Source: Acidocella sp. KAb 2-4
Lineage (GTDB): Bacteria > Pseudomonadota > Alphaproteobacteria > Acetobacterales > Acetobacteraceae
Length of the DNA: 64,000 nucleotides
NCBI RefSeq assembly: GCF_020567705.1
Contig: NZ_JAJDJU010000001.1
Coordinates: 62,001-126,000 of the forward strand
Reading direction: 5' to 3'
Shown here: positions 5,658-21,006 of the stretch, in pieces
Numbering within the stretch: position 1 is the stretch's first letter
Layout: the number at the start of each line of letters is the position of its first letter
Notes under the pieces: model-generated
What the model was told of the DNA's origin: nothing
Databases searched by the model: none
The model's input: only the letters and a program-made list of their open reading frames with translations
Position numbers and translations under genes: made by a program

Positions 5658-5733
5658 TGGCTCCCGAAGTAGGACTCGAACCTACGACCGAGCGATTAAC
5701 AGTCGCTTGCTCTACCAACTGAGCTATTCGGGA
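5658..5733 (-). tRNA. tRNA-Asn(GTT)
   Basis: A 76-nt cloverleaf with encoded CCA on the reverse strand. The acceptor stem is TCCCGAA paired with TTCGGGA, the anticodon loop is CTGTTAA with anticodon GTT, and the T arm contains GGTTCGAGTCC. All arms can be drawn without mismatch problems. Confidence 0.97.
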
Positions 5734-5830: not shown

Positions 5831-5880
5831 GCGGGCGTGGTGGAACTGGTAGACGCGCCGGACTCAAAATCCGGTTCTGG
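5831..5880 (+). pseudogene. 5' fragment of host tRNA-Leu(CAA), split by element
   Basis: The first 50 nt of a tRNA-Leu: acceptor 5' strand GCGGGCG, D arm, complete anticodon arm (CAA) and the first strand of the variable arm. The sequence then diverges at 5881. The missing 37 nt are found at 20837-20873. Joining the two pieces through the shared 29-bp core gives a perfect 87-nt tRNA-Leu(CAA) with encoded CCA. Confidence 0.92.
5852..5880 (+). repeat. attL core, 29-bp direct repeat
   Basis: Identical over 29 bases to 20808-20836; the flanking bases differ on both sides, so the match ends are sharp. The core covers the anticodon arm of tRNA-Leu, a common crossover place for tyrosine integrases. 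A third copy with one mismatch is at 7395-7423. Confidence 0.9.
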
Positions 5881-6009
5881 CCCTAAAAATTACAAATAAT
5901 TTCGTGGTTTTTCAGCTATATAGAACATATTCTGCGTCAAGACTGATTTTGCACAGGTCTTGCACAAATTTTCACATCCGTGTTGGGACTTGGCGGTTGG
6001 AGTGTCGCC
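5881..6009 (+). promoter_or_regulatory. left-end non-coding region, candidate integrase arm/operator sites
   Basis: AT-rich stretch between attL and the integrase start. TTGCACA occurs twice as a direct repeat (5949-5955 and 5960-5966), 11 bases apart, about one helical turn. Two 9-mers near the core recur near the right end: CCACGAAAT (here on the reverse strand at 5899-5907, forward at 20741-20749) and GGTTTTTCA (5906-5914 and 20764-20772). These are candidate arm-type integrase or excisionase sites; by-eye evidence only. Confidence 0.35.
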
Positions 6010-7320
6010 ATGGCAGCGCATCATGAGTTTTTCGGCGGAAAGCTTCACGTTTATAAGCGGGACGACAGCCGCTTTTGGCAGTGCTCGACCTACCTCAAGG
6101 GGCGAAATTTTCGAATCAGCACAAAAGAAGAGGGGTTTGCCCAAGCCAAGGACATCGCCGAGGACTGGTATCTGGGGTTAAAAAGCAAGGCGCGGACCGG
6201 AGACCTGCCGCAAGGCAAGACTTTCAAATTTGCCGCCGCGCAGTTTCGCAAGGAATATGAGGCCCTCACTGCGGGGGAGCGCAATCCTGAGTATGTAAAA
6301 GACCATTGGAATCGGCTTCGGGTCCATTTGGAGCCGTTCTTCGGCGATAAAGTGCTGTCAGCAATTACACCGGGATTGGTGCAGGACTACAGGATTCATC
6401 GGGCAACGTCGCGCATCAATGCCAAAACTGGCGAACCAATGCGCCCCTCGCGGAGCACGATGCACCAGGAAATTGTGACGCTACGCCTGGTGTTGAAATC
6501 GGCGGCGCGCCATGGCTGGCTGACGTATGTTCCGGATCTTGCCGCACCCTATAAGAGCTCTGGAAAGATATCCCACCGGGCCTGGTTCTCACCAGACGAA
6601 TATAAACGGCTTTATACTGCCACCAGGGAGCGGGCAGCAACCCCGCCCAAGCCGCGTTGGCGATGGGCGTGTGAACAGATGCATGATTTTGTCCTCTTCA
6701 TGGTCAACACCGGCCTGCGCCCTGATGAAGCATGGCGCCTCGAGTTCCGGGATGTCGAGATCGTCAAGGATGCGCGGTCTGGTGAGACAATTCTTGAAAT
6801 CAGCGTTCGCGGTAAACGAGGGGTTGGGTATTGCAAAAGTATGCCCGGCGCTGTCGTGCCGTTTGAACGATTGCGTGACCGATTGCGGCCTCTCGAGGAA
6901 GAGGGGCGGCGACACCATGGGCCTGTAAATAACGGCGCGGACATGGTGCATGGAAGCCGGAAACCCGAATCAACGGAACGATTGTTTCCCTACCGGCACC
7001 GGGAGCTTTGGAACAAGATTTTGAGCGAATTGGACATGAAAAGTGATCGGGAGGGTAATGCGCGGACGGCCTATAGCCTTCGGCATACCTATATCTCCAT
7101 GCGATTGATGGAGGGGGCCGATATTTATCAGGTTGCCAAAAACTGTCGCACCAGCGTGGAGATGATTGAGAAATTTTACGCAGCTCATATCAAACATATG
7201 ATCGACGCTTCTGCGGTGAATGTTCGCCGCCAGCGGCCTAATAAGCGCCAGCCCCAGCGTGGCACGATTGCCCAACTTTCAAAATTTGGGCAAGAAATCG
7301 ATTTAGGTGAGAGGTCCTGA
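6010..7320 (+). CDS. tyrosine-type site-specific integrase
   Basis: Catalyses integration and excision at the tRNA-Leu core. From ATG 6010 it is 436 residues; a GTG at 5980 would add ten residues. An N-terminal arm-binding / SAM-like core-binding region (FAAAQFRKEYEAL, YVKDHWNRLRVHLEPFFG) is followed by the catalytic domain. Visible catalytic residues are Arg237 in TGLRPDEAWRL, the basic VRGKRGVGYCK strand, Arg358-His359 in YSLRHTYIS, and the nucleophile Tyr390 in IEKFYAAH. It reads in the same direction as the disrupted host tRNA and ends 53 bases before the internal tRNA-Leu. Its base composition is lower in GC than the chromosomal genes. Confidence 0.93.
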   Translation: MAAHHEFFGGKLHVYKRDDSRFWQCSTYLKGRNFRISTKEEGFAQAKDIAEDWYLGLKSKARTGDLPQGKTFKFAAAQFRKEYEALTAGERNPEYVKDHWNRLRVHLEPFFGDKVLSAITPGLVQDYRIHRATSRINAKTGEPMRPSRSTMHQEIVTLRLVLKSAARHGWLTYVPDLAAPYKSSGKISHRAWFSPDEYKRLYTATRERAATPPKPRWRWACEQMHDFVLFMVNTGLRPDEAWRLEFRDVEIVKDARSGETILEISVRGKRGVGYCKSMPGAVVPFERLRDRLRPLEEEGRRHHGPVNNGADMVHGSRKPESTERLFPYRHRELWNKILSELDMKSDREGNARTAYSLRHTYISMRLMEGADIYQVAKNCRTSVEMIEKFYAAHIKHMIDASAVNVRRQRPNKRQPQRGTIAQLSKFGQEIDLGERS

Positions 7321-7334
7321 CGTTAATCTCGGTC

Positions 7335-7363
7335 TTGGCAGCGCCTTCAGGCATCGCTATAGG
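7335..7363 (+). promoter_or_regulatory. promoter of the internal tRNA-Leu(CAA)
   Basis: TTGGCA at 7335-7340 and TATAGG at 7358-7363 with a 17-base spacer, 10 bases before the tRNA start. It is unlike the host promoter at 5790-5818, so the internal tRNA is not simply a duplicate of the host locus. Confidence 0.6.
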
Positions 7364-7373
7364 AAGTCGTGTC

Positions 7374-7460
7374 GCGGGCGTGGTGGAACTGGTAGACGCG
7401 CCGGATTCAAAATCCGGTTCTGGTGACAGAGTGTCGGTTCGATTCCGACCGCCCGCACCA
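7374..7460 (+). tRNA. tRNA-Leu(CAA), element-borne full-length copy
   Basis: Complete 87-nt class II tRNA with encoded CCA. The acceptor is GCGGGCG / CGCCCGC, the anticodon stem CCGGA/TCCGG, the loop TTCAAAA with anticodon CAA, and the T stem GTCGG/CCGAC is perfect. It differs from the reconstructed host tRNA at only two of 87 positions: position 32 (T instead of C, 7406) and the variable-arm loop (GTGA instead of GTAA). Neither change breaks pairing, so it should be functional. Upstream and downstream flanks are unlike those of the host gene. Confidence 0.96.
7395..7423 (+). repeat. third copy of the 29-bp core (one mismatch)
   Basis: Lies inside the internal tRNA-Leu in the same orientation as the two outer copies and matches them at 28 of 29 bases. 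It could in principle act as an alternative crossover site for the integrase. Confidence 0.8.
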
Positions 7461-7535
7461 TATAGCATTCAGAGATCGGCAGGTTAAGAAAATTCTGCGG
7501 GTGCTTTGGAAAATCACCCCCCTCGTTTTTTGATT

Positions 7536-7564
7536 AAGCGGCGGGGCTTGCCCCCGCCGCTTTT
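7536..7564 (+). terminator. hairpin with T run downstream of internal tRNA-Leu
   Basis: AAGCGGCGGGG pairs with CCCCGCCGCTT around a short loop, followed by TT and then GGG. It is 75 bases after the tRNA and could end its transcript; in the reverse direction it lies about 120 bases beyond the stop of the giant helicase gene. The T run is short, so efficiency is doubtful. The stretch 7461-7682 shows nothing else I can support. Confidence 0.5.
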
Positions 7565-7682
7565 GGGCCGAACGGCCCGTTCTTTGCTGAACGGCATTTT
7601 TGCATCTTCCCCGCTTTGGGAACCTGCGGCGTATGCGAATCTCAAGTGCTCTGGCCGTTTTGCTGGAGGTTGGTTTGTTGGG

Positions 7683-10600
7683 TCATATTTTTTGCATGAA
7701 CCCCTCGATTCGCTGCCGTGTGGTGTTTGATAAGCGTTTAATCCCAAACATCCGAGCGACTTCGACGGCCTTGTCCTCGGCCTCGCTGGCCCGGAGCGCG
7801 GCAAGTAGTTCAGGGCCGGGAACATCCTCGATCGATCTCACATCGTCATCGGAGGCCGGTGTGCGGTAATGCTGCCAGAGGTTGGGCGCATCTTTGTCCG
7901 GCCAGACGAAGTTTGTCGCTTCTTCCTCCAGGACGACGTGATGGTGTTGCCCAACTATTCCCATGACGCGTTCATGAATGAGGCGGCCGGAGCGCTGAAA
8001 TCCATGGGCACGGGCGATGCGTTGGACCAACTGAGTTTCGGAGATCGGCGCCTCAAGCGAGATCACGTGTTGGATCAATCCTCGTAGGACGACATCGTAT
8101 GCAGCATCATAGAATGCCGTGGCATCGATGGACTCAGCATGGGTTGTGAAATCGGCGAGGCGATAGTGTCCCGCTGCCGGTGCGCCACGAAAGGGCGATT
8201 GTGCTTCGGCAAATTGGCGTACCTGGGAGGGTACAACAATTTCCGGTGTTGGCGCGATGGAAGCCTGTGCAGCCGCCTGGGCCAATTCTTCCGTCTTCTG
8301 CCGGCGTTGATTTTCCAATACTTCGCTGATGGCTTGATGCAGCTTTTCAGCGGCCCTGTGCTTGTCGATCCACCAGTCGGTTGACCAGATTCGCAGAAGA
8401 GTCCAACCGAGTGAGTCAAGGATCGCCGCACGCACTTTGTCGCGGTCTCGAGCGGTCGCGGCACTGTGGTAGGTGGCTCCGTCACATTCAACACCCAGCA
8501 AATAATCACCAGGACGATCAGGGTGCACGATACCAAGATCGATACGGAATCGGGAAACACCAATTTGGGGCACGACGCACCAGCCGCGCCGGGTTAGTTC
8601 CTGTGACACCGCGGCTTCGAAGGGCGAATCGTGGCCGCCGACCGATCCGAGTACGGCTTCGCTGAGCGCGCGAGGGCCGCGATCGGCGAATTCAATGAAG
8701 TGTTTAAGGTCACGGACAGCGCGCGCGTTGGTGCGGTTAAGATCGATCATATTCGGATCGAATGACGTGAAGATGTGCATTTCCTGACGGGCACGCGTGA
8801 GGGCGACGTTGAGTCTGCGCCAGCCCCCCTGGCTGTTCAGCGGGCCGAAATTCATCGCCATGGTTGGGGCGCCTGCTTCAGTGGGACCAAAGCCGATGCC
8901 CAGGAAGATAATGTCACGTTCGTCGCCCTGCACTGTTTCCAGGTTTTTGACGACGACAGGTTCGCTGCGATCCGGGCTGAAATGCGGCTCAATGGCTGGG
9001 GTATTGCGGCGTGCTTGATCAAGCAGGTCTTCGACCAGCCGCTGTTGGTCGGCATTGAGTGTGATGATACCAAGCGATTTTTGTGCGGCAATAAAGGCAG
9101 GATCTGTGAGGAGGCGAATGGCCGCATCAACGATCGCTTGCGCCTCACGGGTATTGGTCCGACCTGAGCCGCGCGCGTAGATGCCATCAACCCTATGCCA
9201 TTCGACCGCGCTGGGGCGTGTGGTGGCGGCGGGGAAAGTAACAAGGATATTATCGTAGTATTTGTGGTTGGAGAAGGCGATAAGGCTTTCGTGGCGGCTA
9301 CGATAGTGCCAGGTGAGGCTCGTTTGCGGGATCCCTGCCGCGAGGCATTCGTCGAGAATACTCTCCATGTCCTGCTCACTGTCTTCAGAATCGCCCGGGC
9401 TGCGACCAAAAAAATTAGTTGGCGGCATTTGGCGGGGGTCGCCCGCGATAATGACTTGGGCGCCACGGGCCATGGCACCGATAGCATCCCACGGCGCGAT
9501 TTGTGAGGCTTCATCGAAAATAATCAGATCGAACAGCGCCTGATCCGGAGGCAGATATTGGGCGATGGAAAGCGGACTCATCATCATGCACGGCGCAAGG
9601 CGCGTGAAGGCTTCCCCCATCTCGCTGGCGAGCTGGCGAATAGGTTTGTGGCGGCGTTGCAATTGTAATTGGTGTCGCAGGACACCATAACCGCCGGTGC
9701 TTGATTTGGATTCTTTATCCGGAATCTGGCTGCATATGCCAGCGCGGATGCGGCGAACGGCGAGTTGGGCCAGTTTGTCATCGAGGGCGCGGAAGGCGCC
9801 GATGTCGTCCATGTGTATGCTTGACGTAAAAGCGCGCAGGCGGGGTTCAGCGTCAATCGTCTGACTCGCGAACCAGCGAGCATAAATTGTTTCAAACATA
9901 TCAAGAACCCGCGCAGCAAGCGCCGGTCCAGTTTCGGGCATGTCTGCTATTGCCAACAACAGCGGGGTGAGCCCGTTTACTTCCGCTTCAGCTCGTACAC
10001 GGCACCAGTCGGTCCAGGCCTTCAAGCGGGGTTGGTACTGGATGATCAGGTTTGCCAGATCGCGCACGGGGATGATGCCGGGATCGGCGTGGTTGGCAAC
10101 AAGGGCGACAAAGTCACGGACGGGTGTTTGCAGGGCGATGTCTGCGGCGATGCTCTGTTGAAGCTTTTGGCTGAGGTTGCCGCCTGGGGAGAGCAGCTCG
10201 TTGGCATCGATTACCCAGTCTGCCACGGTGCGGCGGAGCGAGATGAGATGTTCGGGATCGATGGCGGCCGTCGTGATGGCGGCGCGTAAGTCCGTGCAGC
10301 GCGCGAGCCATTGGTTGAGCTGTGTTGCATTAGAGGTCGGGCCGCTCCATCCCGGAAGCTGCGCAAGATGAGGCGTGAGCTGGTCCAGTTCGGTCAAACA
10401 GGTTTGCAACGCAGCAAGGCTCGGTGCGGCTTTGGAGAAATCAACGGGTTGAATGACGCCAAGTTGGTTCGCGAGCTGTTTGGCGAATTTCTTTTGGGCG
10501 ATGCCGGCGAGGAAGAGGAATTTGCTGCTGGCCGTCTGCCAGGCTTGTTGCAGCGCGACGAGATCGAGGCGACGAAGGGCGTCCGCCGTGCAAGGCTGCG

Positions 10601-13439
10601 CGAGTTGGGCCATGGCGGCGTGATACCGCCCCAGGATGTCCTGTGCCTGAACAAGCGCCTTTTGTTTTTCCAGAAAATCGGGCGCGAATGCGGCGCGCAG
10701 GTCGTGGCCGTGACAGGCCAGGATTTGACCGATTAAAGGGTGAAGTACCTGAGTGGGCAGGATCAGGCGAGATGCTTGGCATAAGGCGGCTTCGGCTTGT
10801 TCGGCGGCATCTAGCAGCGGGAGGATTGTGTGCGCTAAGGAGGCGAGTTGTTCTTGCCACCGGTTGGACCAATCCGTTTGCTGGATATGGGCGAATGCTC
10901 CGGGGAGGTCGGTAACCTCACGGCGGGCGAGGCCGAGGCGGCGAGCAATGTCACGCAACAACGTGATATCCCCCGCCGTGTGGATGATATTTGGCGCAAA
11001 CATCAGGCGGGGATCGTCGGGCTTTGCGTCATGCACGACGCGGCCAATCGCCCAATGTAGCGTGAGGCCGTTAGGGTGCTGGCGATGAAGCAGGGCGACG
11101 ATATCGTTAAGGTTGTCGCGCAGGCGCTTCGCATCGGCCGCTTCCTGGGCCCAGGCTTCGGTGCTGAGATGGTCGCGGGTTGTCCACGCGCGATCGAGCT
11201 GTTTGAGAACGTCCGCCTTGTTCGCTTTGTTGGAATGCAGTTCGAGACAGAATTCACCAAGCCCCTTTTCGCTCAAGCGGCGGTGCACGACGTCAAGCGC
11301 CGCCATTTTTTCAGCCACAAACAGGACGCGACGTCCCAGCGCCAGATTATGGGCGATCATATTGGCGATAGTTTGCGATTTTCCGGTGCCTGGCGGGCCG
11401 TCGAGCACAAAATTTTGCCCCTGCGCGGAGGCGACAACCGCGGCGAGCTGGGAGCTATCGGCGGGCAGGGGGGTAAATAGAGCCGCCGGGTCGATCATGG
11501 TGTCGAGCTGTTCGGGCCGCACCATTTCACTTTGATTGGCGAGACCGCACGCATTGCGTTCGAGAAGATGTGCGACAACCGGATTTTGGCGCAGCAGATC
11601 GGCGCGATCGACCAAATCCTTCCACATCAGATATTTGGAGAAAGTGAAGCTGCCGAGAACCGTGTCCTCGGTGACTTCGAGGCCAGGGATATCGCGTACC
11701 GCGCGCCGCAAAGTGCGCCAGACGGCGGCTATATCAATTCCATTATCATCCTTGGGCAACTCGCCTTCCAACTCGGGTATGGTGAGCTCGAAGTCTTCCC
11801 GAAGCATCTCAAGTAACGTCATGTTGAAGCGCGGCTCGTCTTCATGTTGGCTCATCACCACGCCGGAATTTGCGCTTTTACGCTCCAACTGCATGGGGAG
11901 CAGAACCAAAGGCGCCCGGTAAGATTTTATATCCTCCGGCTTTCGTTTCCATTTCAGAAAACCAAGGGCCAGGAAAAGTGTATTCGAGCCGCCTTCCTCA
12001 ATGTCGGTTTTGGTGGCGCGGTAGAGTTCAATCAGTTCGGAATCGAGCTTTTCTCGCGGCAATTGAGCGAGAACCTCTCCTTTCAACAGGGCTTCGTTAG
12101 CGTAAACCTCGCGGAGGTTTTCGTGAGTTTGGTCCTGGTAGAGCGCCTCATCGCGTCCGGCCACAGCGAGATCAGGAAGTGCGACGATGCGAATTTTGTC
12201 GCCGCGGGCAAGCTGGTCTTCGAGACTGGCGGGATTAGGGCAGATGAGGCGGATCGCCTTGCTGCGGTCGGGCAGATTAAGCAGTCGATTGCTGGCGGTC
12301 AGATTGAGGAGTTTGCGCTGCCAATGCTTGAGACGGTCTGCCGGGCTGCTGATAGCGGCGGTGATTTCGATATCAAAATCGGGAAGGTTAGGCGCCGCTT
12401 CGAGCGCTTCAGAGACAGATGGGGCGGAAGTATCGCGCACAGCTTCCTGCAGCGTTTGGCTGAGCGGGCGAATTTTCTGCATCCGCGCACGGCGAATATC
12501 GATGGCCATGATGAAATTAGCCTCGACATCTTCCGCGATCTGCCGTTCCGCGTTTTTAACGGCGGCGCTGAATGCGGGCGGCGAGGCATCGGTGGCGAGG
12601 GTAGTCTCAAAGATCAAGAGATCTTGAACATCAATGCAGCGGCGCAGAGCGGCGGCTTCGTCCATGAGCAGGCTTGGGAATTCGACGGGCTGCAACCACA
12701 CGCCAGCAAACGCGTGCCCTTTGAGCAGCACGATCAAGGGGTTCAGACCGGCTTGTTCTAACGCCGCTGCGAAGAGCACGGCAGTATCAAGACAGGTGCC
12801 GACCTGGCCATCGAGAATTGTACCGGGGGGGCGGATGCGCTGCCCGTGCTGCTCGAAGCTGGCAGGGGGAACGGCATACGAAAGGCGAAACCCGCATATT
12901 GCGGTCCAGATGGCGCTCGCCAGTTCCCAGACGCGTTTTTTTGATTTGGCTTGATAACCGTCAATGCCGTCTGGGCTGCCGGCGCGACGTAGCGCGTCCG
13001 ATGCCGCCTTGAGGACCCGATCAACGGCGGGATCATTGGGCATGACAAATGCGGGGAGGAGTTCGGGCATGGCTGCGCCGCCCCATTCCGAGCGGGCGAG
13101 CAACTCAACCGGTTGGCGCAAGTCGGCTAGGGTTTCGTCATTACACGTCAGATGCAGACGGACTTCGCCGCTTAGGGCTTCAGTGAGATCGCCCAGAAAT
13201 GTTGCGTTGAGGGTGATGTTACGGTCGCTGATATTCAGCCTGCTGTCCGCGGTCATCCGATCTATGCGCCATGTGCGGGCGGACAGGAACGGGGGGTCAG
13301 CCGTTAGGGTCAGCGTGAGATCATTGGCGATGTCTTCGGCGCCGCTTGTTAGCCGAAGCTCCCGGAGCAGCGGAACCATGTTTTGATGAGCCGCGAAGCC
13401 GGTTTTCGGAACGATGGTTGCTTCAATCGTATAGGCCAT
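7683..13439 (-). CDS. giant DUF4011 / SF1 helicase / nuclease / DUF3320 protein, likely defence
   Basis: A 1918-residue multidomain protein. Residues about 205-250 look like a transglutaminase-type fold with Cys216 in GQVGTCLDTA and His242 in KGHAFAGVWLQ. A DUF4011-like region lies near 368-420 (LKHWQRKLLNLTASNRLLNL). The SF1 helicase core has Walker A GPPGTGKS at 681-688, Walker B IIFDEAS near 1309, GDPRQMPP near 1333, motif V VQGDERDI near 1503 and motif VI NVALTRAR near 1544. A Vsr/DUF559-like nuclease follows (about 1605-1710) with Asp1634 and Glu1651-x-Asp1653. The C-terminus (from about 1765) matches DUF3320. I chose ATG 13439, which has AGGAG upstream; an ATG at 13487 would add 16 residues. 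Proteins of this architecture are frequent in defence islands; I infer an anti-phage role and do not assign a named system. Confidence 0.88.
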   Translation of the reverse strand: MAYTIEATIVPKTGFAAHQNMVPLLRELRLTSGAEDIANDLTLTLTADPPFLSARTWRIDRMTADSRLNISDRNITLNATFLGDLTEALSGEVRLHLTCNDETLADLRQPVELLARSEWGGAAMPELLPAFVMPNDPAVDRVLKAASDALRRAGSPDGIDGYQAKSKKRVWELASAIWTAICGFRLSYAVPPASFEQHGQRIRPPGTILDGQVGTCLDTAVLFAAALEQAGLNPLIVLLKGHAFAGVWLQPVEFPSLLMDEAAALRRCIDVQDLLIFETTLATDASPPAFSAAVKNAERQIAEDVEANFIMAIDIRRARMQKIRPLSQTLQEAVRDTSAPSVSEALEAAPNLPDFDIEITAAISSPADRLKHWQRKLLNLTASNRLLNLPDRSKAIRLICPNPASLEDQLARGDKIRIVALPDLAVAGRDEALYQDQTHENLREVYANEALLKGEVLAQLPREKLDSELIELYRATKTDIEEGGSNTLFLALGFLKWKRKPEDIKSYRAPLVLLPMQLERKSANSGVVMSQHEDEPRFNMTLLEMLREDFELTIPELEGELPKDDNGIDIAAVWRTLRRAVRDIPGLEVTEDTVLGSFTFSKYLMWKDLVDRADLLRQNPVVAHLLERNACGLANQSEMVRPEQLDTMIDPAALFTPLPADSSQLAAVVASAQGQNFVLDGPPGTGKSQTIANMIAHNLALGRRVLFVAEKMAALDVVHRRLSEKGLGEFCLELHSNKANKADVLKQLDRAWTTRDHLSTEAWAQEAADAKRLRDNLNDIVALLHRQHPNGLTLHWAIGRVVHDAKPDDPRLMFAPNIIHTAGDITLLRDIARRLGLARREVTDLPGAFAHIQQTDWSNRWQEQLASLAHTILPLLDAAEQAEAALCQASRLILPTQVLHPLIGQILACHGHDLRAAFAPDFLEKQKALVQAQDILGRYHAAMAQLAQPCTADALRRLDLVALQQAWQTASSKFLFLAGIAQKKFAKQLANQLGVIQPVDFSKAAPSLAALQTCLTELDQLTPHLAQLPGWSGPTSNATQLNQWLARCTDLRAAITTAAIDPEHLISLRRTVADWVIDANELLSPGGNLSQKLQQSIAADIALQTPVRDFVALVANHADPGIIPVRDLANLIIQYQPRLKAWTDWCRVRAEAEVNGLTPLLLAIADMPETGPALAARVLDMFETIYARWFASQTIDAEPRLRAFTSSIHMDDIGAFRALDDKLAQLAVRRIRAGICSQIPDKESKSSTGGYGVLRHQLQLQRRHKPIRQLASEMGEAFTRLAPCMMMSPLSIAQYLPPDQALFDLIIFDEASQIAPWDAIGAMARGAQVIIAGDPRQMPPTNFFGRSPGDSEDSEQDMESILDECLAAGIPQTSLTWHYRSRHESLIAFSNHKYYDNILVTFPAATTRPSAVEWHRVDGIYARGSGRTNTREAQAIVDAAIRLLTDPAFIAAQKSLGIITLNADQQRLVEDLLDQARRNTPAIEPHFSPDRSEPVVVKNLETVQGDERDIIFLGIGFGPTEAGAPTMAMNFGPLNSQGGWRRLNVALTRARQEMHIFTSFDPNMIDLNRTNARAVRDLKHFIEFADRGPRALSEAVLGSVGGHDSPFEAAVSQELTRRGWCVVPQIGVSRFRIDLGIVHPDRPGDYLLGVECDGATYHSAATARDRDKVRAAILDSLGWTLLRIWSTDWWIDKHRAAEKLHQAISEVLENQRRQKTEELAQAAAQASIAPTPEIVVPSQVRQFAEAQSPFRGAPAAGHYRLADFTTHAESIDATAFYDAAYDVVLRGLIQHVISLEAPISETQLVQRIARAHGFQRSGRLIHERVMGIVGQHHHVVLEEEATNFVWPDKDAPNLWQHYRTPASDDDVRSIEDVPGPELLAALRASEAEDKAVEVARMFGIKRLSNTTRQRIEGFMQKI

Positions 13440-13569
13440 GCGTGGAATGATCTCCTGCGGGCAACATGGCCTTTGGAGTTGGCTCACGTCAACCTGAAGC
13501 TGCAGAGCTAAGGCTTATCCCCATGGCGCGTGGCCCCCGCGCCGGAGCGTCAACTCAACGGATCACGAT

Positions 13570-14076
13570 CTATTCCTTGCCGCCAGCCGGGCCGAATAGC
13601 ATGCGGCGATTGCGCTCAATGATCTCCCGCTCAGCGTCGGTTTGCGGGCGCGGCGGTTCAATCGGCCGGAATGAGACGGATTTGAACCTGGGTTCAGCCG
13701 GGGCGGCCTGTGGGGGGATAACTCCGGCGGCAGGGGCGGGCGGGGTCCCATCGGCACTGCGCGGCTGGCCCGTCTCAGCAGGCTGGGTGCTTTTACGTGC
13801 ATACCCTCGTAGTGGCTTTCTGGCGCGGTAGGCTTCACTTTGCAGCCCATCTGCGGTCCATGCCCTGCCGGTCCGGTAGGTAATGCCAGCCCGCGTAAGC
13901 GCGCGGGCGATTGCCGCCCATGACCATCCTTCCCGTACAAGTGCCAGCAGCATTTCGGCGTGTTGCCGAAGCCAGGGGCGGATTACATCACCCGGCACCC
14001 ATATTGCCCGGAAACTCGCGGCCAGGGCTTCAATTTCGTCATCGGAGGGAACACGCCTTAACGACATCATTGCCAC
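13570..14076 (-). CDS. hypothetical protein with recombinase/HTH-like N-terminal half
   Basis: A 168-residue protein not recognised by name. Residues about 30-75 (WLRQHAEMLLALVREGWSW, then AAIARALTRAGITYRTGR) look like a helix-turn-helix of the kind in small mobile-element proteins. The middle is Pro/Ala-rich and disordered, and the end is charged (DAEREIIERNRRMLFG). Starts at ATG 14076, 14070 or 14067 are all possible. It lies 130 bases upstream of, and co-directional with, the giant helicase gene, so the two may be co-transcribed. Two inverted repeats lie directly upstream (about 14103-14125 and 14130-14144), consistent with a self-regulating DNA-binding protein; that role is inference. Confidence 0.6.
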   Translation of the reverse strand: MAMMSLRRVPSDDEIEALAASFRAIWVPGDVIRPWLRQHAEMLLALVREGWSWAAIARALTRAGITYRTGRAWTADGLQSEAYRARKPLRGYARKSTQPAETGQPRSADGTPPAPAAGVIPPQAAPAEPRFKSVSFRPIEPPRPQTDAEREIIERNRRMLFGPAGGKE

Positions 14077-14129
14077 TCATAAAATCGATCTCGCGGTTGA
14101 ATATCCTCCAAAGTCGAGGAAAATATCAA

Positions 14130-14144
14130 CTTCCGATTCGGAAG
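14130..14144. promoter_or_regulatory. perfect palindrome, candidate operator
   Basis: CTTCCGA-T-TCGGAAG, 7-bp arms around one base, 54 bases upstream of the ATG of the small reverse gene at 13570-14076. Typical size and symmetry for a dimeric repressor site. Confidence 0.45.
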
Positions 14145-14159
14145 ATTGACTTCTGGCTA

Positions 14160-14267
14160 GGCTCAATCCTCAGCCCAATCCCGAGCTCAATCCTGGGCTC
14201 TTTCCCACGCTTAATCCTATCCTCATCCCTATACCCATCCCTATGCTCAACCCTAGCCTCTAATCTC
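14160..14267. repeat. 12-bp tandem repeat, nine degenerate units
   Basis: Nine adjoining 12-bp units without gaps, consensus about NGCTCAATCCTA. Examples are GGCTCAATCCTC (14160), AGCTCAATCCTG (14184), CGCTTAATCCTA (14208) and TGCTCAACCCTA (14244). The phase is kept throughout, which is hard to get by chance. No spacers are present, so it is not a CRISPR array. It could be an iteron-like protein-binding array or a decayed minisatellite. Confidence 0.75.
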
Positions 14268-14435
14268 GTAGGCCTGTTGTGGTAGCGGGTTATGCTTCTA
14301 CAACAGACCAAGGAATGCTAGCGCATGCGAGAGAGCGGAGCCCCGGCCCATCCCGTCTGCCCCTTTGGGTTGTCATCGCGCCCCCCGTCACGCAAACTCC
14401 CCATCGGCGGCGTAAACCGCGAATCGGAGGACGGG

Positions 14436-16175
14436 ATGGCAGGGCAGGCACGGGAAGAGCGGTTTTTGGAGGTTCTGGCAGAACTTGGCGGCAGTGCTGG
14501 CAATGGCAGGCTTCAAGCTGAGCTGGGCTGGCAGGACGCCACCTATGCGCGGGTGCAGGCGGCGCTGATCGAGGACGGGCGTATTGTTAAAGGCCGGGGC
14601 CGGGGTGGCTCTGTGGCCCTGGCGGAGTTTGCCGCCGAGGAAGAGGAAGCCCCGGCGCCCGTGGCGCAGCCCAAGCCCGCCGCCAAGCCAGCTTCCCGCG
14701 CCTCCAACGGCAACGGCGCCACCAGCTTCGAGCAGATTTTCAAGAACATCGACGATGTGCTGTGGAAGGAGGCCGGTTGCACGACCGAGCTGGACTATAC
14801 CGAGCAGACCTCCTGGATGCTGTTTTTAAAATACCTGGACGACCTGGAGTTCACCCGCGCCACCGAGGCGGAGCTGCACGGCCAAGGCTACACGCGCATT
14901 ATCGACACGCCGCACAACTGGGCCTCCTGGGCCGCGCCCAAAAAGCCGGATGGCGGCTTCGACCATGACCGCGCCCTCACCGGCTCAGACCTCATCGACT
15001 ACGTGAACCGCGACCTCTTCCCCTACCTCCAAGGCTTCAAGGCCCGCGCCGCCGGGCCGGACACCATCGAGTACAAAATCGGCGAAATTTTTTCCGAAAT
15101 CCGCAGCAAATTCCAGAGCGGTTATTCGCTCCGGGACGCGCTGGAGCTGATCGACGGGCTGCATTTCCGCTCCCAGGCGGAAAAACACGAGCTGTCCCAC
15201 CTGTACGAAGCCAAGATCAAGAACATGGGCAATGCGGGCCGCAACGGGGGCGAGTATTACACCCCGCGCCCGCTCATCCGCGCCATGATCCAGGTTGTGA
15301 AGCCCCAAATCGGCGAGCGCATTTATGACGGCGCGGCCGGGTCTGCCGGGTTTTTGTGCGAGGCGTTTGAGTATTTGAACGCGCGGGCAAAAACCACGGC
15401 TGAGCGCGACACGCTGCAAAAGCGCACCTTCTACGCCAAGGAGAAGAAGAGCCTCGCCTATGTCATCGCCATCATGAACATGATCCTGCATGGCATCGAG
15501 GCGCCCAACGTCATCCACACCAACACCCTGGCCGAGAACATCGCCGACATTCAGGATAAGGACCGTTTTGATGTCATCCTCGCCAACCCGCCTTTTGGCG
15601 GCAAGGAGCGGCCGGAGGTGCAGCAGAATTTCCCCATCAAAACCGGGGAAACCGCCTTCCTGTTCCTCCAGCATTTTATAAAATCGCTGAAGGCCGGGGG
15701 AAGGGCCGCCATCGTCATCAAGAACACCTTCCTCTCCAACTCTGACAACGCCTCCCGCGCCCTGCGCCAGGAGCTGCTGGAAAACTGCAACCTGCACACG
15801 GTGCTGGACTGCCCCGGCGGCACCTTCCAGGGTGCTGGCGTAAAAACGGTGGTGCTGTTCTTCGAGAAAGGCGCGCCCACGCGGCGGGTTTGGTATTACC
15901 AGCTCGACCCTGGCCGCAGCATGGGTAAGACCAGCGCGCTGAATGATGCCGATCTGGCCGAATTTGTACTCCTCCAGGCCAGCTTTGCGGAGTCCGAGAA
16001 ATCTTGGGGTGTGGATGCCGCCAGCATCGACCCGGCCAGCTTTGATCTGTCCGTAAAGAACCCCAACCAGGCCGAGGAGGTGGCGCTGCGCGACCCGCAA
16101 CACATCATTGCGGAGATTTTGCGCCTGGACGCTAAGAGCGCGGAAATCCTTGAAGGCATCCGGGGGCTAATTTGA
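14436..16175 (+). CDS. hsdM: type I restriction-modification methyltransferase subunit HsdM
   Basis: N6-adenine methyltransferase subunit that works with HsdS (M2S) and HsdR. ATG 14436 has GGAGG five bases upstream and gives 579 residues; the frame is open to 14325. An N-terminal winged-helix-like extension and Pro/Ala linker (to about residue 90) precede the HsdM N-terminal helical domain (FEQIFKNIDDVLWKEAG). The methylase core carries the SAM motif DGAAGSAGFL and catalytic motif IV ANPPFGG. The stop overlaps the hsdS start, giving a coupled operon. Confidence 0.96.
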   Translation: MAGQAREERFLEVLAELGGSAGNGRLQAELGWQDATYARVQAALIEDGRIVKGRGRGGSVALAEFAAEEEEAPAPVAQPKPAAKPASRASNGNGATSFEQIFKNIDDVLWKEAGCTTELDYTEQTSWMLFLKYLDDLEFTRATEAELHGQGYTRIIDTPHNWASWAAPKKPDGGFDHDRALTGSDLIDYVNRDLFPYLQGFKARAAGPDTIEYKIGEIFSEIRSKFQSGYSLRDALELIDGLHFRSQAEKHELSHLYEAKIKNMGNAGRNGGEYYTPRPLIRAMIQVVKPQIGERIYDGAAGSAGFLCEAFEYLNARAKTTAERDTLQKRTFYAKEKKSLAYVIAIMNMILHGIEAPNVIHTNTLAENIADIQDKDRFDVILANPPFGGKERPEVQQNFPIKTGETAFLFLQHFIKSLKAGGRAAIVIKNTFLSNSDNASRALRQELLENCNLHTVLDCPGGTFQGAGVKTVVLFFEKGAPTRRVWYYQLDPGRSMGKTSALNDADLAEFVLLQASFAESEKSWGVDAASIDPASFDLSVKNPNQAEEVALRDPQHIIAEILRLDAKSAEILEGIRGLI

Positions 16176-17401
16176 ATAGTACCTGGAGAAAAATGAAACT
16201 GGCCGACGTGTGTGCGGTTGAAAAACAGGCTTATGACGGTAGTCCGCTCCCGTATGTTGGGTTGGAAGATATCGAAAGCTCAACGGGTCGCTATCTTGGT
16301 AATTTTGAGCCTAAGACCGTGCAAAGTACCAGTTTTAGATTTACCCCTGAGCATTTGCTCTATGGGCGCCTGCGCCCGTATCTCAACAAGCTAATCGCCC
16401 CGGAATTTACTGGCCACTGTTCGACTGAGATTTTTCCAATTCGACCAAGTAAGCAGCTAGACCGACAGTTCCTCTTTTATTGGCTGTCTATGCAGCAAAC
16501 CGTCGATTTGATCGACGGGACGTGCACGGGGGCTCGAATGCCCCGCGCCAACATGAACGAAGTAATGAATTTCGAGCTTCTTGTTCCCTCTATCGCCGAG
16601 CAGAAGCGCATTGTCGCCATTCTCGATGAGGCCTTTGCGGGCATCGCAGCCGCAACCGCCAACGCCGAGAAGAACCTCGCCAACGCCCGGTCCCTGGTTG
16701 ATGTTGCTATTGAAGAGCAATTAGGCCGCATCTCACAAGGGCAACACCAAGAGACGACTGTTGCCCAGGTCGCCGAGAACAGAAAAAATTCTGTCCGAAC
16801 GGGACCGTTTGGAAGCCAGCTGCTGCACGGTGAGTTTGTTGATGAGGGCATCGCTGTTCTGGGTATTGATAACGTCGTTCAAAACAAATTCCGTTGGGAT
16901 AAACGGCGCTATATTACGCCGGACAAGTTCAAGGAACTTACACGGTACAGGGTTTTTCCGGGCGATGTTCTCATCTCCATCATGGGGACTTGTGGAAGGT
17001 GTGCCGTCGTCCCTGATGATATTCCACTCGCAATCAACAGCAAGCACTTATGCTGCATTTCGGTGGATCAATCACGGTGTTTGCCCGAGTTCTTGAAGCT
17101 GTATTTCTTGCATCATCCGGTGGCGAAGAACTACCTGGAAGAGCGTGCTTCGGGGGCGATTATGGCTGGTCTCAATATGGGGATCATCAAGGATTTGCCT
17201 GTCCTTTTGCCATGCGTGAAAGAACAAGCTGCGATCGTTGCGACTTACGAAAGGCTGTCCAGGGGCTTATCCGACCTCATGGAGGTTTACTCTCGTAAGC
17301 GTGCATATTTGGCAGAGCTCAAACAAGCCATCCTCCAAAAAGCCTTCTCCGGTGAACTCACCGCACTGCGCGAAGAGGCCCTGCAAGAGGAAGCTGCATG
17401 A
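16172..17401 (+). CDS. hsdS: type I restriction-modification specificity subunit HsdS
   Basis: Determines the bipartite DNA target. It has two target-recognition domains: residues about 1-140, and about 190-345 beginning at the GPFGSQLLHGEFV segment. Each is followed by a conserved helical repeat (PSIAEQKRIVAILDEAFAGI near 145 and LPCVKEQAAIVATYERLS near 348). The length of 409 is normal. The TTG start at 16172 overlaps the hsdM stop and gives the family N-terminus (STWRKMKLADV); ATG 16193, after GGAG, is the alternative. The recognition domains are clearly less GC-rich than hsdM and hsdR, as expected when target domains are exchanged. The recognised sequence cannot be predicted by eye. Confidence 0.95.
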   Translation: MNSTWRKMKLADVCAVEKQAYDGSPLPYVGLEDIESSTGRYLGNFEPKTVQSTSFRFTPEHLLYGRLRPYLNKLIAPEFTGHCSTEIFPIRPSKQLDRQFLFYWLSMQQTVDLIDGTCTGARMPRANMNEVMNFELLVPSIAEQKRIVAILDEAFAGIAAATANAEKNLANARSLVDVAIEEQLGRISQGQHQETTVAQVAENRKNSVRTGPFGSQLLHGEFVDEGIAVLGIDNVVQNKFRWDKRRYITPDKFKELTRYRVFPGDVLISIMGTCGRCAVVPDDIPLAINSKHLCCISVDQSRCLPEFLKLYFLHHPVAKNYLEERASGAIMAGLNMGIIKDLPVLLPCVKEQAAIVATYERLSRGLSDLMEVYSRKRAYLAELKQAILQKAFSGELTALREEALQEEAA

Positions 17402-19731
17402 ACGAGGCGGAAACTCGCGCTGAGCTGATCGACCCCGCGTTAAAACAGGCAGGCTGGGGCGTGGTGGAAGCCAGCCGGGTGCGCCGGGAGGAGATAACGC
17501 TGGGCCGCCTGCAAGGGGCAGGCAAACGCTCAGCCAAGGACATTGCCGATTACGTCCTCACCTACCGCAACCACAAGCTGGCGGTGATAGAGGCCAAGCG
17601 GCGCGACAAGCCGGACACCGAGGGCGTAGGGCAGGCCAAAAAATACGCCGAAAAACTCCAGGCCCGCTTTGCCTACTCCACCAATGGCGCGGGCATATAC
17701 GAGATAGACATGCACACCGGGGCGGAAGGCTACGTGCCCCGCTACCCTACGCCGGACGAACTCTGGGGCCGCGCCTTCGCCGAACAAAACGCCTGGCGGG
17801 ATCGCTTCGCCACCATCCCGTTTGAGGACAAGAGCGGCACTTGGCAGGCCCGCTATTACCAGCACAACGCGGTGGAGAACACGCTGGAGGCCATCGCCAA
17901 TGGCCGGAACAGAATCCTGCTCACCTTGGCCACCGGCACCGGCAAGACGTTTATCGCCTTTCAGCTCGCCTGGAAGCTGTTTCAGAGCCGCTGGAATATC
18001 GGCCGCGAGCCCACCCGCCGCCCGCGCATATTGTTTTTGGCGGACCGCAACATTCTGGCAGACCAGGCCTATAACGCCTTCTCGGCCTTCCCCGAGGACG
18101 CGCTGGTCCGCATCGCCCCGGATGCCATCCGCAAGCGCGGCCGCGTGCCGAAGAATGGCAGCATCTTCTTCACCATCTTCCAGACGTTTATGAGCGGCCG
18201 GGATGCCGAGGGAAATTCTGCGCCGAACTTTGGCGAATATCCGCCGGATTTCTTCGATTTTATCATCATCGACGAATGCCACCGGGGTGGCGCGAATGAT
18301 GAGGGGACATGGCGCGGGATTCTGGAGCATTTTGCCCCCGCCGTGCAGCTCGGCCTCACAGCCACGCCCAAACGGAAGGACAACGTGGACACCTACGCCT
18401 ATTTCGGCGAGCCGGTTTACACCTACTCGCTGAAGGAAGGCATCAATGACGGCTTCCTGACACCCTTCAAGGTGCGGCAATTCGCCACCACTCTGGATGA
18501 TTACGTGTACACGCCCGATGATGAGGTGGTGGACGGCGCCGTGGTGGAGGGCAAACGCTACACTGAGGGAGATTTCAACCGGATCATCGAGATTGCCGAG
18601 CGCGAGAAATACCGCGTCCGTACCTTCATGGACGAGATCGACCAGCGCCAGAAGACCCTGGTGTTTTGCGCCACGCAGGACCATGCGGCGGCGGTGCGCG
18701 ACCTCATCAACCAGATAAAGGCCAGCAAGGACCCGAATTACTGCGTGCGCGTAACGGCCAATGATGGCGCGCTGGGTGAGCAGTTTCTGCGGACGTTCCA
18801 GGATAACGAGAAGACCATCCCCACCATCCTCACCACCAGCCAGAAACTCTCAACCGGCGTGGATGCGCGGAATGTGCGCAACATCGTGCTGATGCGGCCG
18901 GTGAATTCGATGATCGAGTTCAAACAGATCATCGGGCGCGGGACGCGGCTGTATGAGGGCAAGGACTATTTCACCATCCTGGATTTCGTGAAGGCCTATG
19001 AGATGTTCGAAGACCCCGAATGGGACGGCGATCCGATGGAGCCCGTTGCGGTCACGCCACGCAACCTTACGGCGCCCGGGGAGCCAGAGGTGAAAGCCAG
19101 GCAATCCGACGAGCCTGAGCAGACTCAGCGCGTGAAGATCAAGCTGGCGGATGGCAAGGAGCGGACCATCCAGCATATCAGCACCACCAGCTTCTGGGGG
19201 CCGGATGGCAAGCCGATTTCCGCCAAACAGTTCATGGAGAGCCTGTTTGGGCAGTTGCCGGAACTGTTCAAGGACGAAGAGGAGCTGCGGGCCATCTGGG
19301 GCCGCCCGGATACCCGCAAGGCGCTGCTGAACACGCTGGCCGAACGGGGCTTTGGGGGCGAGCAGTTGGCCGAGATGGGCAAGGTCATCGACGCCCAGAA
19401 GAGCGACGTGTTCGACATTCTGGCCTACATCGCCTTCGCGCTGCCGCCCATCACCCGCGCCGAGCGCGTGGAGAAACACCGGGGGGAAATCCTCCCCCGG
19501 TACGACGCCAAGCTCCAGGCGTTCCTGGATTTCGTGATGGGCCAGTACGTGGCCCAAGGCGTGGAGGAGCTGGACCAGGACAAACTCGCCCGGCTGCTGG
19601 AGCTACGCTACCAGACCCTGGCCGACGCCACGGCCGAGCTGGGGGCCGCGCCCGGCATCCGCGGGGCGTTTGTTGGGTTTCAGGAGTTTTTGTTCAACCG
19701 GGATGCGCCGGAGGGATCATCACATCCATGA
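17398..19731 (+). CDS. hsdR: type I restriction endonuclease subunit HsdR
   Basis: The 777-residue translocase-nuclease that cleaves unmodified DNA, coupled to hsdS by an ATGA overlap. The N-terminal nuclease domain shows the PD-(D/E)xK core as IADYVLTYRNHKLAVIEAKR (residues about 48-67). The superfamily 2 motor has Walker A LATGTGKT near 178, DECH box FIIIDECHRGG near 286, TATPKRK, and motif VI QIIGRGTR near 513. The length resembles EcoEI-type (shorter) HsdR proteins. All three subunits look intact, so the system is probably active. The end overlaps the convergent RES toxin gene by 12 bases. Confidence 0.96.
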   Translation: MNEAETRAELIDPALKQAGWGVVEASRVRREEITLGRLQGAGKRSAKDIADYVLTYRNHKLAVIEAKRRDKPDTEGVGQAKKYAEKLQARFAYSTNGAGIYEIDMHTGAEGYVPRYPTPDELWGRAFAEQNAWRDRFATIPFEDKSGTWQARYYQHNAVENTLEAIANGRNRILLTLATGTGKTFIAFQLAWKLFQSRWNIGREPTRRPRILFLADRNILADQAYNAFSAFPEDALVRIAPDAIRKRGRVPKNGSIFFTIFQTFMSGRDAEGNSAPNFGEYPPDFFDFIIIDECHRGGANDEGTWRGILEHFAPAVQLGLTATPKRKDNVDTYAYFGEPVYTYSLKEGINDGFLTPFKVRQFATTLDDYVYTPDDEVVDGAVVEGKRYTEGDFNRIIEIAEREKYRVRTFMDEIDQRQKTLVFCATQDHAAAVRDLINQIKASKDPNYCVRVTANDGALGEQFLRTFQDNEKTIPTILTTSQKLSTGVDARNVRNIVLMRPVNSMIEFKQIIGRGTRLYEGKDYFTILDFVKAYEMFEDPEWDGDPMEPVAVTPRNLTAPGEPEVKARQSDEPEQTQRVKIKLADGKERTIQHISTTSFWGPDGKPISAKQFMESLFGQLPELFKDEEELRAIWGRPDTRKALLNTLAERGFGGEQLAEMGKVIDAQKSDVFDILAYIAFALPPITRAERVEKHRGEILPRYDAKLQAFLDFVMGQYVAQGVEELDQDKLARLLELRYQTLADATAELGAAPGIRGAFVGFQEFLFNRDAPEGSSHP

Positions 19732-20238
19732 TGCCGGGTTTTTCGGTAGGCGCATTTCATCGTCGATAACCCGGACCTGGTGGGGTAGCGTGTCGGACCA
19801 TTTATAAAAGACGAGGTTACGGTCCCGCTCAATCGCGCCAGGGGCGAAGCTGGGGACGATAATGGCGGCGCTCCCCTGGGCGATAAGCTGCTTTGCCAGC
19901 GCCCAGCTTGGTGGAGTTTTGCCGCGCGAAGCGATATCTTCCCAGGCGCAGGAAAGCGCCGCCGGGGTGAGCCCAAAGCCCGCCAGCGTTTCCTGGTCGG
20001 TCAGGTCGGCAACGTCGTCGCAATCAATCTCATACGCGCAGATTGTCAGCGGCTGGACCTTAAAGGCAAAGCCCTGCTGGGCTTCGAGCCAGGCGGTTTC
20101 CATTCGCAGAGACGTATAGAGTGCGGGTAGGCCGGCGGGGTTAAAACGGCCACCGTAGCGGGCGGCACCATCTCCGGAAAGGGGAGAAAAAGCCCAACGC
20201 GGATTATGGGCGCGGAAAACCGTGCCGCGAAACCTCAA
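19720..20238 (-). CDS. RES-domain toxin (NAD-degrading family)
   Basis: A 172-residue RES-family protein. The family is known to deplete NAD+ and forms toxin-antitoxin pairs with Xre/DUF2384 proteins. The conserved segments are present: RGTVFRAHNPRWAF at the N-terminus, GGRFNPAGLPALYTS around residue 30, MET...E after it, and NLVFYKW near the C-terminus. The start overlaps the antitoxin stop by 4 bases, so it is translated from the same mRNA downstream of the antitoxin. Its 3' end overlaps hsdR by 12 bases in the opposite direction. Confidence 0.93.
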   Translation of the reverse strand: MRFRGTVFRAHNPRWAFSPLSGDGAARYGGRFNPAGLPALYTSLRMETAWLEAQQGFAFKVQPLTICAYEIDCDDVADLTDQETLAGFGLTPAALSCAWEDIASRGKTPPSWALAKQLIAQGSAAIIVPSFAPGAIERDRNLVFYKWSDTLPHQVRVIDDEMRLPKNPASWM

Positions 20239-20615
20239 GCGTAACCGCCAACGGTAATCCGGTCCAGATAACGCTTCACCGCCTCGGCCCGGCCTTCCTT
20301 GACCAGAGACTCGGCGGTTTGATCACCAAAGGAGGGGAGGGGCTGCGAGCGATACCAGGCGAACGCCTGCTGCGGCGAGCCAGCCCAAGGCCGCACGCGG
20401 TTCAGGATTTCAACAATATCCCGCAGCCGTGCCTGGGTGGCATGGGTACTGACGCGGGCGGTCTTCGTGACAGCATCGCGCGAAAGGCCCACCGCAACGG
20501 CAAGCTCAGCGCGGGTGATATGCAGCATGTCGCTTAACTGATCCGCCGCGACGAAGCCGGATTGGCCAGCGGTTTCACTGAGAAAAGATGTGTCAGACAT
20601 AATTTTGCCCATCAT
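20235..20615 (-). CDS. Xre/MbcA/ParS-type antitoxin (DUF2384)
   Basis: A 126-residue antitoxin that should neutralise the RES toxin and bind its own promoter. An N-terminal helix-turn-helix (LSDMLHITRAELAVAVGLS, residues about 27-45) is followed by the toxin-binding DUF2384 domain (DIVEILNRVRPWAGSPQQAF near 66). The typical antitoxin-first order and a 4-base overlap are present. Starts at 20615, 20612 or 20600 are possible; GAGG precedes 20615. Confidence 0.93.
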   Translation of the reverse strand: MMGKIMSDTSFLSETAGQSGFVAADQLSDMLHITRAELAVAVGLSRDAVTKTARVSTHATQARLRDIVEILNRVRPWAGSPQQAFAWYRSQPLPSFGDQTAESLVKEGRAEAVKRYLDRITVGGYA

Positions 20616-20650
20616 ATTGCCTCATAGTGGGGCAACTTATAGGGCAATAT
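20616..20650. promoter_or_regulatory. candidate operator of the Xre/RES pair
   Basis: Repeated ATTGCC/GGCAAT half-sites lie directly upstream of the antitoxin start: TTGCC at 20617-20621 opposed to GGCAA at 20631-20635, and a further GGGCAATAT at 20642-20650. Position and symmetry fit autoregulation by the Xre antitoxin. Confidence 0.5.
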
Positions 20651-20807
20651 GCGGATTTTAACAATAGAGCAGTTGACGCACGACAGGCGCCGGGAGGCAT
20701 GAAAAATTCAGAACGGTCGATCAATGATAGAGCAATTTTTCCACGAAATCTTTCACGGACCGCGGTTTTTCAAAGATTTTCTATGTTAAATCAATACTTT
20801 ATATTTT

Positions 20808-20836
20808 GACGCGCCGGACTCAAAATCCGGTTCTGG
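20808..20836 (+). repeat. attR core, 29-bp direct repeat
   Basis: Identical to 5852-5880. The base before it (T) and the bases after it (TAA) differ from the left copy, so the match is bounded exactly. It marks the right end of the element. Confidence 0.9.
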
Positions 20837-20873
20837 TAACAGAGTGTCGGTTCGATTCCGACCGCCCGCACCA
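20808..20873 (+). pseudogene. 3' fragment of host tRNA-Leu(CAA)
   Basis: Contains the anticodon arm (shared core), variable arm, T arm (GGTTCGATTCC), acceptor 3' strand CGCCCGC and encoded CCA, but no D arm or 5' acceptor strand. The preceding bases (TATATTTT) are element sequence. It completes the fragment at 5831-5880. Confidence 0.92.
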
Positions 20874-21006
20874 CCTTGGCGTGCATCCCCTTCTGTTGTC
20901 TTTGCGCAATTTTCCGTGATGCGGCTTTCTGTCCGACAGCGCTTCTCGTAAAAGGGAATTTGCTATGGGCATTCCGGAAGGGATGCATGGCCAGAGGAGA
21001 CGCAAC

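Follow-up and report, generated by a model that had tools for sequence, protein, structure and literature searches.

An integrative defence island of Acidocella that splits a tRNA-Leu(CAA) gene and appears to bring an altered replacement

Introduction

Tycheposons are tyrosine recombinase elements at tRNA genes that carry tRNA sequence. A parallel to the locus studied here is the tRNA-dependent lysogeny of actinobacteriophages, for which the sections of Guerrero-Bustamante and Hatfull (2024, PMC10865867) drawn on here report genetic evidence that phages can break a tRNA gene and must then carry their own. Phage Gaia, as presented in those sections, has a tRNA-Leu-CAA target, an 8-bp core and its own tRNA downstream of the integrase gene (PMC10865867). 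The principle that an element breaks a tRNA gene and carries its own is already known from these phages. Here we describe a stretch of 64,000 nucleotides from Acidocella sp. KAb 2-4 (contig NZ_JAJDJU010000001.1, positions 62,001 to 126,000 of the forward strand; hereafter the window), which most likely carries one integrative defence island of about 15.0 kb from core to core. With good confidence we read it as an island that inserts at the anticodon loop of a tRNA-Leu gene and brings a replacement tRNA, which would be altered at the crossover region against the island's own integrase. New here are the defence island, the new phyla and the change of the spare tRNA at the crossover region.

Results

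A split tRNA-Leu(CAA) gene and a complete guest copy

The host tRNA-Leu(CAA) gene is found in two pieces on the + strand (all positions are those of the window). Its first 50 nucleotides lie at 5831–5880 and form the left attachment site (attL), and its last 66, including the CCA end, lie at 20808–20873 and form the right one (attR). An exact 29-bp core is common to both pieces, at 5852–5880 and 20808–20836. Sequence comparison bore out the split and the identical cores of the original prediction, as well as its limits for the 5' piece; its 3' piece, taken to begin at 20837, really begins at 20808, position 20837 being the continuation past the core. ARAGORN called no tRNA at either island junction, so that neither restores the gene, as had been claimed. 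The only intact tRNA-Leu(CAA) that it called is at 7374–7460 (+ strand), with which Rfam agrees, and we refer to this copy as the guest. It is located downstream of a tyrosine integrase gene (5980–7320, + strand).

When joined, the two halves give a complete 87-nucleotide tRNA-Leu(CAA) that differs from the guest at 2 of 87 positions, the identity of 85/87 that was predicted. The differences are at nucleotide 33 (tRNA position 32, in the anticodon loop) and nucleotide 52 (in the loop of the variable arm), both of which are unpaired in the cloverleaf as drawn, again as foreseen. The middle core within the guest (7395–7423) is 28/29 identical to the outer cores, the single mismatch already noted, with a T at 7406 that corresponds to C32U. 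The window guest is an intronless gene of 87 nucleotides and contains no group I intron.

The locus in the same genome and in relatives

The genome of the window (71 contigs, 100% complete) was found to contain no further intact CAA gene besides the guest. Matches were otherwise obtained to the two halves, to a tRNA-Leu(UAG) on contig C12 and, by pattern match only, to a UAA-type stretch on contig C67. The corresponding locus of relatives contains a single uninterrupted tRNA-Leu(CAA), which in many of them is beside a tRNA-Asn, the neighbour that also flanks the insertion site in the window (5658–5733, − strand; ARAGORN). Three loci (L080, L082 and L086) agree with the window on both sides, with tRNA-Asn before and tad pilus genes after. 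Because the relatives hold one uninterrupted gene at this locus, the split is not a chance arrangement.

Forty intact loci of the genus were examined, corresponding to 30 distinct genes (ten were fetched twice). All 30 have C32 and the loop CTCAAAA, whereas the guest has U32. The commonest allele accounts for 18 of the 30, and the window guest equals that allele plus C32U only. The original prediction had suggested this comparison with island-free relatives and had named two findings that would speak against it: another intact chromosomal tRNA-Leu(CAA), of which none was found in the genome, and an empty site carrying the sequence of 7374–7460, where all 40 genus loci turned out to have C32. 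In one relative (G407) an intact CAA gene is also found on another contig, perhaps from a mixed bin, so that its split gene is not counted as the loss of the only copy.

The genome of the window encodes another integrase of the family (53%) near the start of a contig (L035; G000:C6:211-1467). It sits behind a tRNA-fMet-like 3' half, as in classical fMet relatives.

Relatives of the integrase share the layout

Searched with a profile of four integrases, named genomes gave at least 344 relatives, and the best 80 of these were used; viral contigs gave two. Together with the window, L046 and L047, these 80 and the two viral ones make up 85 loci. Upstream of the integrase gene, 70 of the 85 loci have a tRNA-Leu 5' half that is broken in the anticodon loop (hidden Markov model score of at least 15). 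Downstream of it ARAGORN, with introns allowed, found a complete tRNA in 64 of 85 loci, at a distance of 40–200 bp in 60 of them. It called 59 of these tRNAs Leu and five Phe/Ser; the latter all bear introns and, judged by their intron junctions, may be read as tRNA-Leu(UAA). The common order in the relatives is host 5' half, integrase, complete tRNA-Leu and orphan 3' half. Split genes were seen in Proteobacteria and Acidobacteria, and Planctomycetes loci (L104, L117, L137, L142) show the integrase and guest only.

The 21 loci in which ARAGORN found no tRNA downstream include four with a complete Arg or Met tRNA upstream of the integrase gene, in the classical manner (L128, L149, L169, L172), and six in which the contig ends within about 410 bp of that gene (L105, L109, L118, L129, L152, L160). 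In L155 the integrase gene is followed by a group I intron and the 3' end of a tRNA, which mark an intron-bearing guest; this guest has two unread bases in its 5' part and was missed by ARAGORN.

Orphan 3' halves were sought with one pattern, which misses U32 cores, in 30 genomes reached via the loci, and in the loci examined. They were found for 21 elements, the window included. In 15 of the 21, judged by the length of the contig and the position on it, the 3' half is on the same contig as the 5' half, in five it is on another contig of the genome, and in L170 it is on the same contig in an order that is not simple. The joined halves were called tRNA-Leu in every case (12 CAA, 9 UAA), with cores of 8–39 bp. 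ARAGORN placed a guest beside the integrase gene in 19 of the 21; none of these 19 keeps the core of its own element, and eight have an intron. Reckoned from their end positions, the elements measure about 6 kb at the shortest (L106) and about 63 kb at the longest (L157).

Some further arrangements were observed at tRNA-Leu genes. One Acidobacteria genome seems to hold two elements (L200, on G436:C2, and L173), one each in its UAA and its CAA gene. A complete tRNA-Leu(CAA) precedes the right end by about 235 bp (measured from loop to loop) in L200 and L186, instead of following the integrase gene. At one right end, L192 (G427:C4, positions 380 and 508) has two tRNA-Leu(UAA) 3' halves that are separated by 128 bp and are perhaps left over from an earlier element, and two identical tRNA-Leu(CAA) 3' parts lie 9.1 kb apart at G439:C24:114028 and 123154, possibly marking another island.

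One element or two adjoining elements

The attR flanks of 20 members share a motif about 25–35 bp before the loop. In the window this motif (AATCAATACTT...) is at 20774–20806 on the + strand and scores 14.9. No other of the 63,967 + strand positions reaches this value, and the flank of the middle core is at −24.7. Scoring was done with a uniform background and 20 members, leave-one-out, which gave a range of −10.0 to 22.3. It replaced an earlier scoring with a composition background, in which the window reached 4.6 (members from −14.7 upward, median 10.5) and 36 of 20,000 shuffles and nine window positions were as high. In five loci (L117, L124, L137, L139, L177) the integrase gene is preceded not by a tRNA 5' half but by a joint that resembles the attachment site of a free element (attP), with motif, core and integrase gene in a row. 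These joints score 1.8 to 22.4, whereas none of the 70 flanks that have a tRNA 5' half exceeds −13.1; the five may represent tandem or circular forms. The right-end motif, the elements with both ends found and the attP-like joints argue strongly for a single element. The motif and the layout common to the relatives support the original prediction that this element destroys its target tRNA and supplies a guest copy.

Three copies of the core could also result from two adjoining elements, one a 1.5-kb integrase element restoring the 5' half (5852–7394) and the other an island of the classical kind restoring the 3' half (7424–20836). Evidence for such a pair comes from a locus of the same genus, L079, which holds the DNA of 7349–13643 and 19738–20876 (95% and 93%) with a restored C32 tRNA and no integrase gene; on visual comparison, both of its neighbours are similar to those of the intact gene L049. 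A pair of elements is nevertheless highly improbable. The family motif is at the right end and not at the middle core, and 20 related elements show a 5' half beside the integrase gene and a distant orphan 3' half. Moreover, eight of the 19 guests seen beside the integrase gene have an anticodon-loop intron, as does that of L155, which restoration through the core could not produce. On the right-end motif and the family layout, two elements were judged the less likely arrangement, with L079 as the remaining evidence for them.

In L079 (G380:C32, 5078–12507) the DNA matching window position 13643 meets that matching 19738, and the type I restriction genes are missing; no match to the integrase, HsdM or HsdR was found in this locus. 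A restored tRNA at one junction, the classical trait, is present in L079 and at neither junction of the window. The right end of L079 carries the family attR motif with a score of 10.2. We infer that L079 arose when recombination between the 5' half and the guest removed the integrase gene of an element; alternatively, L079 could be a classical form. Forms such as L079 might even be ancestral classical islands, from which the tRNA-carrying form arose by gaining the integrase gene and promoter. L079 is indeed simpler and has the common C32 allele, but it has the family motif at its right end in spite of lacking a family integrase, and a deletion between attL and guest, which share 49/50 bp, would give L079 in one step; such an ancestry seems doubtful to us.

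Guests are altered at the presumed crossover

To return to the single tRNA-carrying element, 53 elements with both a host 5' half and a guest were compared, after one twin (L100) was dropped. The guest has the anticodon of the broken gene in 52 of 53, when the five Phe/Ser calls are read as UAA. The 9-bp core of the guest's own element is missing from the guest in 51 of 53. An intron accounts for 26 of these 51 core losses (24 UAA and 2 CAA guests). A further 15 are CAA guests that have U32 against C32 in the target; three (L112, L123, L145) have C32 where the target has U32, with changed stems as well; six have changed anticodon-stem bases at positions 30/31; and the last is L131. All 24 UAA guests of this set bear an intron. 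The intron junctions have U before the intron and G at its end in 27 of 27 guests, and a match to the group I intron family RF00028 was found in all 25 genomes searched (11 above the cut-off), inside the guest in 24 and overlapping the guest end in L161.

As a background, one CAA pattern gave 94 matches in 190 genomes of the class, from which the two of the window and two that are not tRNAs were dropped. The remaining 90 genes, counted by hand, comprise 79 with C32 and 11 with U32. The full GACTCAAAA core is kept in 78 of the 90; among the CAA guests whose elements have that core, it is kept in 2 of 21 (Fisher 2e-11, kinship uncorrected). Group I introns, searched with stricter filters than those of the RF00028 guest search, gave matches in 21 of the 190 class genomes, and 3 of the 23 loci concerned adjoin a family integrase. 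On the integrase tree, a quick tree in which 17 of 92 rows carry no label, the guest switches from one kind to another at least 15 times. At four loci (L202, L206, L208, L211) a tRNA-Leu(UAA) with a group I intron has no family integrase within 1.5 kb; these may be residents or remnants.

Guest and target might differ merely through neutral divergence of a tRNA captured elsewhere, with introns as passengers and no shielding. In line with this, many sites distinguish the guests of relatives with both ends found from the host tRNA (60/90 to 79/87 columns match), 20 of the 23 class group I intron loci have no adjoining family integrase, and four guests keep the core. We nevertheless consider neutral divergence unlikely, as the window guest departs from the common genus allele by one change, located in the crossover region, and as the 9-bp core, kept in 78 of 90 ordinary CAA genes, is altered in 51 of 53 guests. 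Furthermore, a target with U32 (L112, L123, L145) goes with a guest that has C32.

Integrase, guest signals and cargo

The integrase, a protein of 446 amino acids that may start at the ATG at 6010, was assigned to PHROG 1 (E 5e-30), with Pfam matches below the cut-off; searches of NCBIfam and PDB gave no match. Its AlphaFold2 model, made with four sequences, is poor (mean predicted local distance difference test score 51). Queried elsewhere, the integrase gave one weak match in a phage collection and 19 in plasmids, each below 60% identity.

A promoter-like sequence of the guest, TTGGCA-17-TATAGG, is at 7335–7363 (+ strand) and is absent from the report of a stricter promoter scan. Upstream of guests in the family, 12 of 63 have such a sequence with at least 9/12 matches, versus 1.3% in shuffles. 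Two overlapping terminator-like stem-loops follow the guest (7564–7594, + strand), a weak signal given that shuffles yield a mean of 0.8 (standard deviation 1.1).

The cargo begins with a DUF4011/AAA/MTES_1575 nuclease protein (7683–13487, − strand), which PADLOC lists as PDC-S37. It is followed on the + strand by the type I restriction proteins HsdM (14325–16175), HsdS (16172–17401) and HsdR (17398–19731), each found by domain scan and PADLOC. The domain scan also identified a toxin-like RES-domain protein (19720–20238, − strand) and an Xre/MbcA/ParS-type antitoxin (20235–20615, − strand), neither with a PADLOC match. Among the eight island proteins scanned, those that could be named are the integrase, restriction or other defence proteins and the toxin-antitoxin pair, and one open reading frame of 168 amino acids had no match. 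Besides the integrase no phage gene was recognised in these eight, the phage-family scan having covered the integrase only, and on these eight proteins the island does not qualify as a temperate phage.

Discussion

We propose that the family tyrosine integrase inserts the island at the anticodon loop of tRNA-Leu genes. Integration would leave the two dead tRNA halves that are present in the window. Because attP lacks the rest of the target tRNA, the element would have to bring a complete tRNA-Leu; one of the same anticodon is indeed found just downstream of the integrase gene, together with the promoter-like sequence. The guest should replace the lost decoding function. Its changes at the presumed crossover would stop the element's own integrase from using the guest as a target site (attB), and such shielding would mean that the spare is cut neither by the neighbouring copy nor by a newcomer of the same kind. 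In its wider form the proposal is that a widespread integrase family breaks tRNA-Leu genes and replaces them with copies that cannot be cut at the crossover. A single change in the anticodon loop or stem would suffice in some, and in others a self-splicing group I intron would act as a removable shield, the DNA being no target and the spliced tRNA normal. We regard this wider form as reasonably probable, and such islands would then carry tRNA-Leu introns between phyla.

Several observations weigh against the proposal. Intronless guests of L146 and L159, among the 53, keep the 9-bp core, and those of L134 and L140, outside the 53, keep GACTCAAAA; the intronless guest of L153 also has GACTCAAAA, with no attL core to compare. 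The host half of L131 looks like UAA, but its guest is CAA. Of the 90 class CAA genes, 11 also have U32, some of them possibly guests. The guest is 2–10 kb away from the integrase gene in L108 and L110 and at the far end in L167, and no guest was found in the DNA examined for L107, L164, L171, L176, L178 and L179. The integrase gene of L166 is followed by a 5' half only, broken in a U32 loop, and a guest is hence not safe from every insertion. No orphan 3' half was identifiable in G405 and G407, where it may lie off the assembled contigs, and most of the relatives are metagenome-assembled genomes. The genome of the window has the UAA-type tRNA-Leu match on C67 (pattern match only), and a UAA-type tRNA might read UUG by wobble, so that the CAA guest may not be strictly essential. 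Lastly, L079, with the same cargo and a complete C32 tRNA at its left end, indicates that the cargo can exist in a classical-looking form.

The broken tRNA of L166 (about 5213–5254) is itself of note, since its loop (GATTCAAAA) looks as if a U32-targeting element had struck the guest.

If the proposal is correct, tRNA-dependent integration reaches beyond actinobacterial phages to defence-carrying islands of at least two further phyla, with a third indicated by integrase and guest only. Group I introns would gain a selected role, in that they would keep a needed gene out of an integrase's reach without changing its RNA, and the scattered distribution of tRNA-Leu introns would have a route. Integrase and guest would be predicted to evolve as a lock and an altered key. 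No paper on introns or loop changes that shield island tRNAs was among the literature matches listed.

The island resembles tRNA-dependent lysogeny, as described in the sections of PMC10865867 cited here, in its tyrosine integrase, its attB in a tRNA gene with no restored tRNA, its short core that is unable to rebuild the tRNA, and its element-borne tRNA of the same isotype. The core measures 29 bp in the window and 8–39 bp in the family, compared with 8–17 bp given there for tRNA-dependent phages. Unlike the phages of those sections, the window holds an island with defence genes and no phage gene besides the integrase in the eight scanned proteins, and its relatives occur in Proteobacteria and Acidobacteria (split genes) and Planctomycetes (integrase and guest only). 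The alteration of the guest at the crossover, often by a group I intron, is a feature of the present family that the cited sections do not describe for tRNA-dependent lysogeny (PMC10865867).

Prophage Lj965 of Lactobacillus johnsonii and the vB_MloP_Lo5R7ANS-like prophages of Sinorhizobium also integrate into tRNA genes and carry a tRNA that is said to compensate, according to the relevant parts of PMC10865867 and PMC12429752. They differ from the window island in being prophages, and those parts describe neither a change at the crossover nor a guest intron. With classical tRNA and tmRNA islands, as presented in the portion of the Islander work consulted (PMC4383910), the island shares a tyrosine integrase at the anticodon region of a tRNA gene and an orphan 3' fragment at the far end, and it departs from them in that neither window junction holds a restored tRNA. 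The classical trait, a complete tRNA before the integrase gene, is found within the integrase's own kin, in its Met and Arg relatives (L036, L041, L042, L128, L149, L169, L172).

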